A stretch of 35,317 nt of DNA from Nitrospirota bacterium. Its GTDB lineage: Bacteria > Nitrospirota > Thermodesulfovibrionia > Thermodesulfovibrionales > UBA6898. Positions 6,692 through 11,997 of the stretch are shown in pieces. The number at the start of each line of letters is the position of its first letter. Position 1 is the stretch's first letter. The stretch spans positions 1-35,317 of the forward strand of contig VEOY01000007.1 of NCBI GenBank assembly GCA_012026685.1, written 5' to 3'. The notes beneath the pieces were generated by a model. The model saw only the letters and a program-made list of their open reading frames with translations, did no database searches and was not told the origin of the DNA. The position numbers were made by a program, and so were the translations under genes.

Positions 6692-7780
6692 ATGATCCCT
6701 ATGATAGATCTGAAAAAGCAATTTGCCGGAATAAAGGACGAGGTACTTGACGTCGTGACCGAGATCCTCGAGAGCGCTCATTATATCCTCGGTCCGAAGG
6801 TCGCCGAATTCGAGAAGCGGGTTGCCGCCTACCAGGGTGTTTCCGAGGCAATAGGGGTTGCATCAGGTACGGATGCCCTCCACCTTGCGGTCAAAGCGCT
6901 TGGCATCGAGGAGGGGGACGAGGTGATAACCACGCCGTTCACCTTTTTTGCGACCGCAGAGGCGGTCATCTATACCGGCGCCAAACCGGTCTTCGTGGAT
7001 ATCGATCGCGATACCATGAATATCGATCCCGCACGGATCGAGGCAAAGATCACGAAGAAGACGAAGGCGATCATCCCTGTCCATATTTTCGGCCATCCCG
7101 CGGACATGGATGCTGTCATGGCGATCGCAAAGAAACATGATCTTCGCGTCATTGAAGACTGTGCGCAGTCATTCGGTGCTGACATCAGGGGAAAGAAGAC
7201 CGGCAGTTTCGGCGATGCAGGGTGCTTCAGCTTCTATCCGAGCAAGAACCTCGGCGCGTTCGGGGACGGGGGACTGGTAACCCTCAACGACGCCGGTCTT
7301 GGTGAGAAGATCAGGGTGCTCAGGAACCATGGTTCGAAGGGAGCATACAAGCATGAGTCCGTCGGCTTCAACAGCAGGCTTGATGAGCTGCAGGCCGGGA
7401 TCCTGCTGGTGAAGTTCTCGCGGATCGACGCATACAACGGGAAAAGAAGGGAAAACGCGGCTTTGTATAACAGATATATTTCGGGCAGCGTTCTCAAGCC
7501 GGTTGAAAGGCCGGGCATGACACATGTGTATCACCAGTATACGATAAGAAGCCCGAGGCGGGATGACATAAAGAGCAAACTTAACGATGCGGGCGTATCG
7601 TCAGTGGTCTATTACCCGATCCCCCTGCACCTGCAGGAGGCACTGAGCTTCCTCGGACATAAAAAGGGAGACTTCCCTGTTTCCGAAGAGGCCGCAGGGA
7701 GCGTGCTTTCGCTCCCCATGTACCCCGAGCTTGAAGAAAAGACCATAAGGGAGATCGCAGAGATCATCAACAATGTCTGA
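6692..7780 (+). CDS. DegT/DnrJ/EryC1 family aminotransferase, probable GnnB
   Basis: A 362-residue PLP-dependent sugar aminotransferase of normal family length. The PLP-binding Lys is Lys185 in SFYPSKNLGAFGDGG. Other family blocks are GTDALHLA near residue 59, TPFTFFATAEAV near 81, and the IEDCAQSFGA block with the PLP-ring Asp near 156. It lies 23 bases after the oxidoreductase gene and overlaps lpxB by 8 bases, so the three are translated together. The likely substrate is the 3-keto product of the upstream enzyme, aminated to UDP-GlcNAc3N for lipid A. A 3-amino sugar for O-antigen is the main alternative, but the tight coupling to lpxB argues for lipid A. Confidence 0.88.
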   Translation: MIPMIDLKKQFAGIKDEVLDVVTEILESAHYILGPKVAEFEKRVAAYQGVSEAIGVASGTDALHLAVKALGIEEGDEVITTPFTFFATAEAVIYTGAKPVFVDIDRDTMNIDPARIEAKITKKTKAIIPVHIFGHPADMDAVMAIAKKHDLRVIEDCAQSFGADIRGKKTGSFGDAGCFSFYPSKNLGAFGDGGLVTLNDAGLGEKIRVLRNHGSKGAYKHESVGFNSRLDELQAGILLVKFSRIDAYNGKRRENAALYNRYISGSVLKPVERPGMTHVYHQYTIRSPRRDDIKSKLNDAGVSSVVYYPIPLHLQEALSFLGHKKGDFPVSEEAAGSVLSLPMYPELEEKTIREIAEIINNV

Positions 7781-8915
7781 AACGGTCATGATCGTTGCAG
7801 GCGAGACTTCCGGGGAACTCTACGGATCACTCCTCGCAGAGGCCCTGAAAAAGAAAGTTCCCCAGGTCAGGGTCGTCGGTATTGGCGGCGACCGGATGAA
7901 GGCGGCGGGGGTCGAGCTTCTCTCCGGCATAGCAAGCGCTTTTGGTATTGCAGAAGCGATTTCCTCCATAAAGACACTCAAAGAGACATTCAGAAAAGCT
8001 TCCGGAGCGTTCCTCACGTATCGGCCTTCTGTCCTCGTACTGATCGACTATCCAGACTTCAACCTCCGTCTCGCAGCAGAGGCCCGGAAGCTGAACATCC
8101 CCGTACTCTATTATGTGAGCCCTCAGGTGTGGGCTTGGAGAAGAGGCAGGGTAAAGAAGATCGCGGGTCTTGTGGACCGGATGGCGGTCATACTGCCCTT
8201 TGAGGCGGAGATCTACCGCGATACCGGTCTTGATGCGGAGTTTGTGGGGCACCCTGTCCTTGATGAGATCCGTGGCATGAAGGCTGACAAACGAGGGCTG
8301 AAGGCGGAACTGGGCCTCGTTCCTGATGTCCCGCTGATATCGCTGCTCCCCGGCAGCAGACCTCATGAACTTGAGCGGCTTCTCCCGCTCGTTCTCGAAA
8401 CGGTCAGGGCATGCAAACGGTCTTTCCCCGGATATCAGTACTGCATCCCGTTTGCTCCGAACACCGATCTGGTTAAACACCTGCAAATTGTCGATCTGCT
8501 GAAAGCTGAAGGAGTGAAGGTCAATAAGGGAAAGTCCCTCTTGACCCTTGCTGCTTCGGACCATGCCGTGATCGCATCCGGTACCGCAACGCTTCAGGCA
8601 GTCCTGCTCGGCGTGCCCCTGGTTGTCATGTACAAGCTCTTTCCGCTAACCTTTTGGCTGGGCAAACGCATTGTCAAGGTAAAGTGGGTGTCCCTGGTCA
8701 ACATCCTTTCGGACCGCGAGGTGGTCAAAGAACTGCTTCAGAAGGATGCCACGGTGGAAAATGTGATTCAGGAACTTGGGAGGATCATGAATGATGCCGC
8801 ATATCGGCAGCAGATGCTGGCGGCATATGGCGATGTGCAAAAGGTGTTCGCCGGAAAGCACGCCTCTGACAGGGTCGCTGAAATGGTCATCGATATGGCC
8901 GAATGGAAGAGATGA
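7773..8915 (+). CDS. lpxB: Lipid-A-disaccharide synthase
   Basis: LpxB (GT19) condenses UDP-diacyl-glucosamine with lipid X to form the lipid A disaccharide at the inner face of the cytoplasmic membrane. The 380 residues match the family. Landmarks are AGETSGELYG near the N-terminus (usual form GEASGD), the IDYPDFNLRLA and YYVSPQVWAWRRGR blocks, FVGHPVLDE, LPGSRPHEL, and SGTATLQAVLLGVPLVVMYK with the donor-site region. The start overlaps the end of the aminotransferase gene. The two preceding genes suggest its substrate may be the 2,3-diamino version of the sugar. Confidence 0.95.
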   Translation: MSETVMIVAGETSGELYGSLLAEALKKKVPQVRVVGIGGDRMKAAGVELLSGIASAFGIAEAISSIKTLKETFRKASGAFLTYRPSVLVLIDYPDFNLRLAAEARKLNIPVLYYVSPQVWAWRRGRVKKIAGLVDRMAVILPFEAEIYRDTGLDAEFVGHPVLDEIRGMKADKRGLKAELGLVPDVPLISLLPGSRPHELERLLPLVLETVRACKRSFPGYQYCIPFAPNTDLVKHLQIVDLLKAEGVKVNKGKSLLTLAASDHAVIASGTATLQAVLLGVPLVVMYKLFPLTFWLGKRIVKVKWVSLVNILSDREVVKELLQKDATVENVIQELGRIMNDAAYRQQMLAAYGDVQKVFAGKHASDRVAEMVIDMAEWKR

Positions 8916-8946
8916 CTGACCGCTATGCAGGACATGGGCATGTCAG

Positions 8947-10239
8947 ATGCCTCTCAATACCGACAGGCCTGACATGTTCCTGATCTACAGCATCCTCTAT
9001 GCATGCGCTTTCGCGATCTTCTTTGTCCCTCAGTATCTGAAAAGACCCCGGGATTTGAGAAAGAGATGGCTGCATGAGAAATTTGGTCTTTTGCCTGTTG
9101 TCCCGCAGCTCGGGCTCCAGGCCCCCATCTGGATCCACGCGGTCTCGGTCGGTGAAGTGAATGCCGCACTTCCTCTTCTGAGAAGGCTGAAAGAAGTGTG
9201 TCCAGCTCTCCCCGTGATCCTTTCGACCATCACCGATACCGGCCAGAAGGTTGCCGGGGAAAAAGCGCCGGAGGGGACAACCATCGTGTATCTTCCTTTT
9301 GACTTCCGCTGCATATTGAGGCGATGCTTCGCGCATATCAATCCCCGGCTGTTCATCGTGCTGGAGACCGAACTCTGGCCAAATGTCTTCAGGGTTGCTC
9401 ATGAAAGGAATGTCCCGGTACTGGTCCTCAATGGCCGGATCTCAAAGAAATCCGCCAAAGGATATCTCAAGGTATCCTTCTTCATGAAGAAGGTGTTCGA
9501 TCATGTGGCCCTTTTCTGCATGCAGAGCGATACGGATGCAGAGAGGATAAGGTCCATTGGCGCACAGGAGGAGAAGGTCAGGGTCACCGGCAACTTCAAG
9601 TTTGACATGGACATTTCGAAGGATGTCCCCGAGTGGACGAAGGGGATCATAGGGCCGGTGATCGTTGCGGGGAGTACGCATGCGGGGGAGGAGCAGATCA
9701 TGATCGATGCCTACCGCGAGAATGTCTATCTCTTCCCCGGTCTTAAGCTCATCATTGCTCCCCGCCATCCGGAACGCTTTAAAGAGGCTGAGGAGACGAT
9801 CATCAGGTCCGATATCCGGTACTGCAGGCGATCGGAACTCGGATCAGGAGACAGGGAGCAGTTCGACCCAGCCTGCAACATACTCCTTCTTGATACGATC
9901 GGCGAATTGACGGCAGTCTACAGCATTGCCCAAATCGCCATCATGGGAAAGAGCTTTGAGGGAGTCGGCGGCCAAAACCCGCTTGAGCCGGCGTACTGGG
10001 GGAAACCGGTCATTTGCGGCCCGCACATGGAGAACTTCCCGTTCATCAGAAGTTTCATTGATGAGGGCGCGGCCTTCGAAGTCACCTCTACAGGCCTTGC
10101 CAAGAAGATCAAGGAACTCCTCATTCAACCGGAAAAGGCAAGAGCTGCAGGTGAAAAGGCCCGTGCCTTGTATCTGAAGAACTCCGGGGCTGTTGACCGG
10201 ACCGTAAAGATCATCGAAGAATACATCGACAGGGAATGA
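8947..10239 (+). CDS. waaA: 3-deoxy-D-manno-octulosonic acid (Kdo) transferase
   Basis: WaaA (KdtA) transfers Kdo from CMP-Kdo to the lipid A precursor at the cytoplasmic membrane. The protein is 430 residues from the ATG at 8947, or 421 from the ATG at 8974 (MFLIYSILYACAF). The second fits better the usual start with a hydrophobic anchor followed by a basic segment. Family blocks are WIHAVSVGEVNAALPLL, the ETELWPN motif, VLNGRISKKS, VTGNFKFD, VAGSTHAGEE and APRHPER, and the C-terminal GGQNPLEPA motif near a PVICGPHMENF donor-site segment. It is the last gene of the gnn-like/lpxB operon, 31 bases after lpxB. No msbA lies between them. Confidence 0.95.
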   Translation: MPLNTDRPDMFLIYSILYACAFAIFFVPQYLKRPRDLRKRWLHEKFGLLPVVPQLGLQAPIWIHAVSVGEVNAALPLLRRLKEVCPALPVILSTITDTGQKVAGEKAPEGTTIVYLPFDFRCILRRCFAHINPRLFIVLETELWPNVFRVAHERNVPVLVLNGRISKKSAKGYLKVSFFMKKVFDHVALFCMQSDTDAERIRSIGAQEEKVRVTGNFKFDMDISKDVPEWTKGIIGPVIVAGSTHAGEEQIMIDAYRENVYLFPGLKLIIAPRHPERFKEAEETIIRSDIRYCRRSELGSGDREQFDPACNILLLDTIGELTAVYSIAQIAIMGKSFEGVGGQNPLEPAYWGKPVICGPHMENFPFIRSFIDEGAAFEVTSTGLAKKIKELLIQPEKARAAGEKARALYLKNSGAVDRTVKIIEEYIDRE

Positions 10240-10320
10240 ATCGTCGTACGCTTTATCGTGACCGACTGCATGCTTCGGGAGGCTGCGGGACGAAAAATGC
10301 AAAAAAGGTGCGGAGCAGTT

Positions 10321-10665
10321 TCAGCGTCTCATCCGGCTCCTGACAAGAGCTTCTATCTCTCCTTTAGATCTGGGATCAACATCCAGGAACCGAACGCCGT
10401 AATCGTAAACGTCAGGCGTTTTTGTCGATGCTCTCACAATCTCTCCGTTCACCGTAATTTTATGCTGGAGGACGAATGAGCATGTTATCTTGTCATGCCT
10501 GGCGAGGACCCGGTCTGTTTCAAAGAGCATGCCGGAAGTGCTTAAGTTCTGTGCCGCTGAAGAGAACGGCTTATTCCTGAATTCCCCCATGACAAACAAA
10601 CGGACGGGACACCGCACGTCCGTTCTCTTTTCGACAGTATTACCCCCCTGACCCCGGTATTCCAT
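10321..10665 (-). CDS. PilZ-domain protein, probable cyclic-di-GMP receptor (1)
   Basis: A 114-residue single-domain protein from the ATG at 10665, which has GGGGGG about ten bases upstream. The open frame extends to 10842 but that part overlaps the upstream PilZ gene and looks non-coding. The domain shows RTDVR (the RxxxR motif) near residue 14 and NLSTSGM (D/NxSxxG) near residue 41. Both c-di-GMP-binding elements are therefore present, with Asn replacing the more common Asp. It has no output domain, so it probably acts by binding a partner. It lies downstream of a second PilZ gene on the same strand. Confidence 0.78.
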   Translation of the reverse strand: MEYRGQGGNTVEKRTDVRCPVRLFVMGEFRNKPFSSAAQNLSTSGMLFETDRVLARHDKITCSFVLQHKITVNGEIVRASTKTPDVYDYGVRFLDVDPRSKGEIEALVRSRMRR

Positions 10666-10783
10666 CACTAAACCCCCCACTTTGTTGCCCGAAGCATATT
10701 TTGTAGTAGTAATGAATGCTTCGTTCCGATTCTCATTATACCATGCACCATTGACGGGTGCGGCGGTCAAGGTCAGGGAACGC

Positions 10784-11134
10784 TCAGGCAATGATGATCT
10801 TATCTCTGACGAACTCTTCATACTCGGGAGATGAGAAATCAATACCTATCCCGGTTGTCTGAACACCGTTCACGAGGCATTTGGTATGTCTCCTGACCGT
10901 CCCCTCAAAAGTAGAAGATTCACCCCTGATGATGAGAGTGACTTTGACGTTCGTTCCTACGGGAGGGGGCAGACGTTTGGGGATGAGGACGCCGTGGTTG
11001 GAGATATCAATAGTCCTGACTTCATGGACCTTGTCATCATATTCCAGCTTTACCTGGAATTTCTTTTCATATCTCGGGCTTCGTCTCTTCTGCGGCCCGT
11101 TATATAGTCTTTTTCCTTTACCGCTGCCGATCAC
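10784..11134 (-). CDS. PilZ-domain protein, probable cyclic-di-GMP receptor (2)
   Basis: A 116-residue protein starting with GTG at 11134, with GGAG eight bases upstream. It carries a canonical PilZ signature: RRSPR (RxxxR, around residue 17) and DISNHG (DxSxxG, around residue 43). The rest is a beta-barrel pattern ending in a short helix (SSPEYEEFVRDKI). It is 118 bases upstream of the other PilZ gene on the same strand, and the pair probably form one transcript. The two proteins are distinct in sequence, so this is not a recent duplication. Confidence 0.85.
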   Translation of the reverse strand: MIGSGKGKRLYNGPQKRRSPRYEKKFQVKLEYDDKVHEVRTIDISNHGVLIPKRLPPPVGTNVKVTLIIRGESSTFEGTVRRHTKCLVNGVQTTGIGIDFSSPEYEEFVRDKIIIA

Positions 11135-11288
11135 ATTTTCTCCACAGGTTCAAAGATAGTCTTTTCATTTTTCGCGCCGGTGCCTTCAATCAATGATGAA
11201 AGAAATTGTGTCCCCGCCGGTTTCGGCAATCATAACACGGGAAAGTTGCGACTTGCCATGCCGGTCGCTGACATCCATCCCTTCATTC

Positions 11289-11474
11289 CTATTGTTCTTC
11301 CCGGCCTTCAGTGACATACCGCATCAGGAATTCCTCGTCTTTCGGCGTCAGGTCGAACTTGAGTCAGGCCTTTTCGATCACGGTGTAAAGGGGGATTTCG
11401 GGGTGCTCGGTGCGCTCGTCCGATACCCATTTGACCGCTCTTCTTAATTGCTCACCTTCCGGCAGAATGCTCAT
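11289..11474 (-). pseudogene. Small 61-codon gene interrupted by an in-frame TGA (nonsense mutation or selenocysteine)
   Basis: An ATG at 11474 with GGAAAGG upstream opens a frame of 36 codons, starting MSILPEGEQLRRAVKW and reaching VIEKA. It is stopped by TGA at 11366-11364. The same frame continues for 24 more sense codons (LKFDLTPKDEEFLMRYV and a short polar tail) to TAG at 11291-11289. The continuation has the composition of a real helical protein. The whole resembles small conserved proteins I recall from Geobacter-like genomes, though I cannot verify this. It lies 28 bases after the SEC-C gene on the same strand. Either a single base change broke the gene, or TGA is read as selenocysteine. 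I see no convincing SECIS hairpin after the TGA by eye. A 36-residue truncated product is also possible. Confidence 0.5.
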
Positions 11475-11502
11475 GGTTATTCCTTTCCTCGGGCCGCGCC
11501 CT

Positions 11503-11997
11503 TCATGGCGCAGTGCCGCAGCATTTCTTGAATTTCCTGCCGCTGCCGCAGGGGCAGGGAGCATTCCGTCCTGTCTTGGGTTCAGCGCGGACAAACTGTT
11601 TCGGGGGAAGCACCTTGCCGTCCACGAGGTACCAGTTGCCGGCTTCCTTCTTGAAAGAGGACAGCTCGTGATGCTCGTGTCTGGTCCCGTTGTCCGTAAA
11701 TGTCGCAATGAACTCGACCGTGCCCTCGGTGTCTTCACCACCCCCGCCGACCGTGCTCAGGACATCGAGATTGTGCCATGCAGAACGTTCGGCCCATGCA
11801 CGGGTCGTTTCCTGATTGAAATCCGAACGATGGTCAGGATGAAGCGAAGAGCAGAGGTGATCGATCTCTTTCATCACATAGGCGCTGTAGCGCGAGCGCA
11901 TGAGCTCTTCCGCTGTTGCTGCCTGTCTCCGGCCTGTTATTACCGGTTCACAGCAGTCTGTATAGGCTGCATTTGATCCGCATGGGCATGTATCCAT
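11503..11997 (-). CDS. YchJ-family SEC-C motif protein
   Basis: A 164-residue protein with a SEC-C zinc-binding motif at each end: [13 protein letters not shown] near residue 4 and [13 protein letters not shown] near the C-terminus. Between them is the YchJ (UPF0225) middle domain ([13 protein letters not shown]; an NTF2-like fold in this family). The start at 11997 (MDTCPCGS) has GGAG six bases upstream; the open frame to 12045 is extra. SEC-C motifs bind zinc and in SecA contact SecB and ribosomes, but the role of YchJ proteins is not established. It heads a minus-strand group with the small interrupted gene and the PilZ pair, and is divergent from lpxK. Confidence 0.9.

Follow-up and report, generated by a model that had tools for sequence, protein, structure and literature searches.

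False pairings of an in-frame TGA with the Cys codon of homologues are filtered in the literature by asking for TGA-containing homologues and a SECIS element (PMC13188914). The published bacterial SECIS (bSECIS) model (Fig. 2 of PMC13188914) describes a hairpin located 16 to 37 nt after the TGA, with a stem of at least 4 bp, a loop of 3 to 9 nt with a G in its first two positions, and an MFE of -7.5 kcal/mol or lower. Some accepted bacterial SECIS elements fall outside this model (PMC13188914). The genome studied here, that of a Nitrospirota bacterium, has its own selenocysteine (Sec) system. The original prediction had proposed a check for selA, selB, selC and selD, and we found selA, selB, tRNA-Sec and selD all present over curated cut-offs. 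selA adjoins selB on contig C193 (G000:C193:15012-18573), while contigs C198 and C88 carry the tRNA-Sec gene and selD, respectively. The selD gene itself contains a TGA, and two formate dehydrogenase genes (G000:C58, about 8593-11451, and G000:C173:3-1403) have a Sec TGA together with strong SECIS hairpins. The Sec system is complete and in use, with Sec encoded in selD and in formate dehydrogenases.

The window, which is the whole stretch of 35,317 nucleotides that was analyzed, contains a small reverse-strand gene interrupted by an in-frame TGA. The gene and its surroundings comprise the following features:

11503 to 11997, reverse strand: upstream YchJ-like protein with SEC-C motifs (Pfam PF17775 and PF02810, NCBIfam NF002449)
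11481 to 11489, reverse strand: Shine-Dalgarno-like AGGAAAGGA, 5' of the ATG, read from the sequence
11367 to 11474, reverse strand: codons 1 to 36, the open part before the TGA, from translation and homologues
11364 to 11366, reverse strand: in-frame TGA, codon 37, where relatives have a sense codon
11289 to 11363, reverse strand: codons 38 to 61 and the terminal TAG, a conserved C-terminal part with no sign of decay, from translation and homologue alignment
10784 to 11134, reverse strand: downstream PilZ-domain protein (Pfam PF07238, E 1.4e-11)

Translation confirms the frame as it was originally described: from ATG 11474, 36 codons lead to TGA 11366-11364, and a further 24 codons lead to TAG 11291-11289. 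Read on the reverse strand, 11474-11289 gives MSILPEGEQLRRAVKWVSDERTEHPEIPLYTVIEKA, the internal stop, LKFDLTPKDEEFLMRYVTEGREEQ and the terminal stop. The good ribosome binding site claimed for the gene is also there, as the Shine-Dalgarno-like sequence at 11489-11481 precedes the ATG. The YchJ/SEC-C gene ends 28 nt from this ATG on the same strand, and two PilZ-domain genes, again on the same strand, lie downstream. YchJ also precedes the small gene in one close relative (locus L033), where the downstream genes differ. A search for a conserved gene neighborhood found no neighbors shared with distant relatives.

A search of the whole genome shows the small gene to be single copy. Its read-through product belongs to a nameless family of about 60 amino acids found in Nitrospirota and Desulfobacterota, for which Pfam and NCBIfam hold no model at cut-off. 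We built a family profile, A1, for searching genomes for the small gene. This profile aligns with the read-through product along its full length (E 5.7e-32, positions 1 to 59 of 60), and so through the TGA, with the consensus MSILPEGEQLRKAVKWISD...LIExACLKFDLxPKDxEFL; the family members otherwise examined have a sense codon at position 37, unlike the TGA of this gene. In the order, 39 of the 176 genomes match profile A1, this genome included; a phylum sample adds 7 further carriers, and a second phylum, sampled around a Desulfobacterales genome, has 138 carriers among 395 genomes. Some Gammaproteobacteria and two Plesiomonas plasmids also encode it, there as a hypothetical protein. Presence is patchy even inside the genus, with the same-genus genome G006 lacking the gene; this absence and the modest share of carriers in the order indicate that the gene is dispensable. 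Sequence and fold searches revealed no solved structure close to the family protein and nothing significant regarding function. An AlphaFold2 model of moderate confidence (mean pLDDT 74) predicts three helices, at residues 8 to 23, 29 to 40, and 44 to 59.

Homologues ending at residue 36 had been named as an observation that would count against an interrupted gene; the homologues instead run to full length and encode an amino acid at position 37. Those from the same genus align through the TGA at 71 to 84% identity and are free of stops, which shows that the open tail is not due to chance. In a comparison with relatives, the synonymous/nonsynonymous ratio of codons 38 to 55 resembles that of codons 1 to 36, indicating that the tail is undecayed and that any lesion is very young. 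Such a tail fits a base error or a mutation that arose very recently, and it would fit a selenoprotein as well.

As to which residue homologues have at position 37, the original prediction had looked to Cys as support for Sec, and Cys (TGC/TGT) is indeed the commonest. The 80 distinct sequences comprise 46 with Cys, 13 with Ser, 9 with Ile, 5 with Val, 3 with Ala, 2 with Thr, 1 with Gly, and the window's TGA, which is thus aligned with Cys in 46 of the 79 others. Intact relatives allow 22 to 26 one-step nonsense changes per gene, of which one or two strike a Cys codon, giving a random nonsense change a 4 to 8% chance of landing there. The coincidence of the TGA with the Cys codon favors Sec by roughly 13- to 26-fold. 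Together with the Cys in relatives and the Sec machinery, these odds made Sec decoding worth testing.

Further evidence from codon 37 does not point the same way. No TGA at this codon is reported in about 189 other carrier genomes (38 in the order, 7 in the phylum sample, 138 in the second phylum, and 6 others), a count in which the codon was read directly only in the fetched loci. A TGA call in the family member from G363, considered as a second Sec case, was rejected, as it is the terminal stop after codon 58. Codon 37 falls within the predicted helix at 29 to 40, and no CxxU, UxxC, UxxT or CxxC-like redox motif surrounds it. We infer that position 37 looks like a buried mid-helix site and not a catalytic cysteine.

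Folding of the stretch after TGA 11366-11364 yields no hairpin compatible with the published bSECIS model, in agreement with the earlier impression by eye that no convincing SECIS is visible. All 10 control Sec sites fit the model (eight selD genes of this and related genomes and the two fdhA genes of this genome), as do 45% of coding positions drawn at random from this genome, making the failure of the small gene informative. Further, the MFE of the post-TGA stretch is no better than that of shuffled sequences (z scores of +0.8, +1.2, +0.5, and -0.3).

In-frame stops also occur elsewhere in the assembly. The recA gene (G000:C104:4134-5096, L262) is interrupted close to its N-terminal end by an in-frame TAA in place of a highly conserved Lys codon, reading GGC TAA GGT where the same-genus genome G001 reads GGC AAA GGA. 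A family search indicates that the assembly apparently has one full recA, with one TAA, and no internal stop is present in other recA genes among the matches listed. Similarly, thiL, encoding thiamine-monophosphate kinase (G000:C19, near 7394-8113; L150, L177), has an in-frame TAA at a codon that is Arg in two same-genus genomes. Both stops are TAA, and selenocysteine is therefore excluded at these sites.

Portions of about 1 Mb (this genome) and 0.8 Mb (G001) were compared, covering 160 shared genes and 50,914 aligned residues. One true internal stop was found in this genome relative to G001, the TAA in recA, and the reverse comparison gave no clearly internal stop. Frameshift-type errors showed no counted excess in the assembly. 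Interrupted genes were also sought by coding potential alone, with no reference genome, but lesions could not be told apart from normal gene ends in this way. The TAA codons in recA and thiL suggest that the assembly contains base errors, mixed strains or recent mutations. By extrapolation there would be roughly a dozen or more such stops genome-wide, at an imprecise rate that rests on one or two events.

Taken together, the TGA is very probably a sporadic single-base nonsense change, either very recent or an artefact of assembly or strain mixture, and is not decoded as selenocysteine. Of the two options originally offered, a conserved small protein broken by a nonsense change is supported by the full-length homologues and by the TAA stops of recA and thiL. 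The undescribed selenoprotein becomes very unlikely: Cys at position 37 and the selA, selB, selC and selD set were indeed found, but there is no SECIS-like hairpin, no relative reported with the TGA, and no conserved redox Cys at this position. On this reading the product would be a conserved small helical protein of the ordinary kind, and codon 37, Cys in most relatives, reads TGA through a single-base change, presumably by consensus error, strain variation or young mutation. If the base is real, translation would end at residue 36, partway through predicted helix 2, leaving a product that lacks helix 3.

The interruption of recA and thiL in this assembly too tips the balance somewhat toward an error or strain variant and away from a fixed mutation. 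We give a little better than an even chance to a consensus base error or strain-mixture artefact of metagenome assembly, with the gene intact in the organism itself. The TAA codons in two housekeeping genes, the single true internal stop in about 51,000 residues aligned with G001 set against none clearly internal in reverse, and the lack of decay 3' of the TGA all speak for such an artefact, although frameshift-type errors are not in excess and the stop rate depends on so few events. A real, recent nonsense mutation is a less probable but credible account, under which the locus would be a young pseudogene of a dispensable gene from which the 36-residue fragment may still be made. It agrees with the patchiness of the gene, which is lacking in a genome of the same genus and in most genomes of the order, and with how common one-step nonsense changes are (22 to 26 possible per gene); however, the tail has neither a second lesion nor relaxed constraint, and chance would strike the Cys codon in only 4 to 8% of cases.

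Decoding of the TGA as selenocysteine in a new small selenoprotein limited to this species is very unlikely, as is its origin by a species-restricted Cys-to-Sec change with a SECIS outside the published bacterial model. The pairing of TGA with Cys in homologues, the complete Sec machinery, the conserved 3' part and the existence of accepted bacterial SECIS elements outside the bSECIS model (PMC13188914) would be consistent with it. Weighing more heavily in our estimate are the absence of a bSECIS-compatible hairpin where 10 of 10 controls have one, the lack of any reported TGA homologue in about 189 genomes, a position 37 that tolerates Ser, Ile, Val, Ala, Thr and Gly without a redox motif, and comparable TAA lesions elsewhere in the assembly. 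Programmed or leaky read-through of the TGA, for example by insertion of Trp or Arg to give a low level of full-length protein, is the least likely account of all. The frame is intact downstream of the TGA as this would require, but the TGA is conserved in no relative, position 37 is never Trp or Arg in the sequences examined, and recA and thiL are interrupted by TAA.

Were the gene a true selenoprotein after all, its family would be new and its SECIS atypical. The very probable nonsense change carries a caution instead: a Cys/TGA pair and a complete Sec system are insufficient for a selenoprotein call in a MAG with spurious housekeeping stops. The family of about 60 residues, nameless in Pfam and NCBIfam, could receive a model of its own. 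Compared with known systems, the small gene resembles SelD and formate dehydrogenase of this genome in having an in-frame TGA aligned with the Cys of homologues in the presence of Sec machinery. Those genes differ in their SECIS hairpins and in a TGA kept across the SelD genomes compared, whereas the small gene has neither. Although the stops of recA and thiL are TAA, unlike the TGA of the small gene, these two genes, like it, have a frame that is conserved and intact apart from one isolated in-frame stop.
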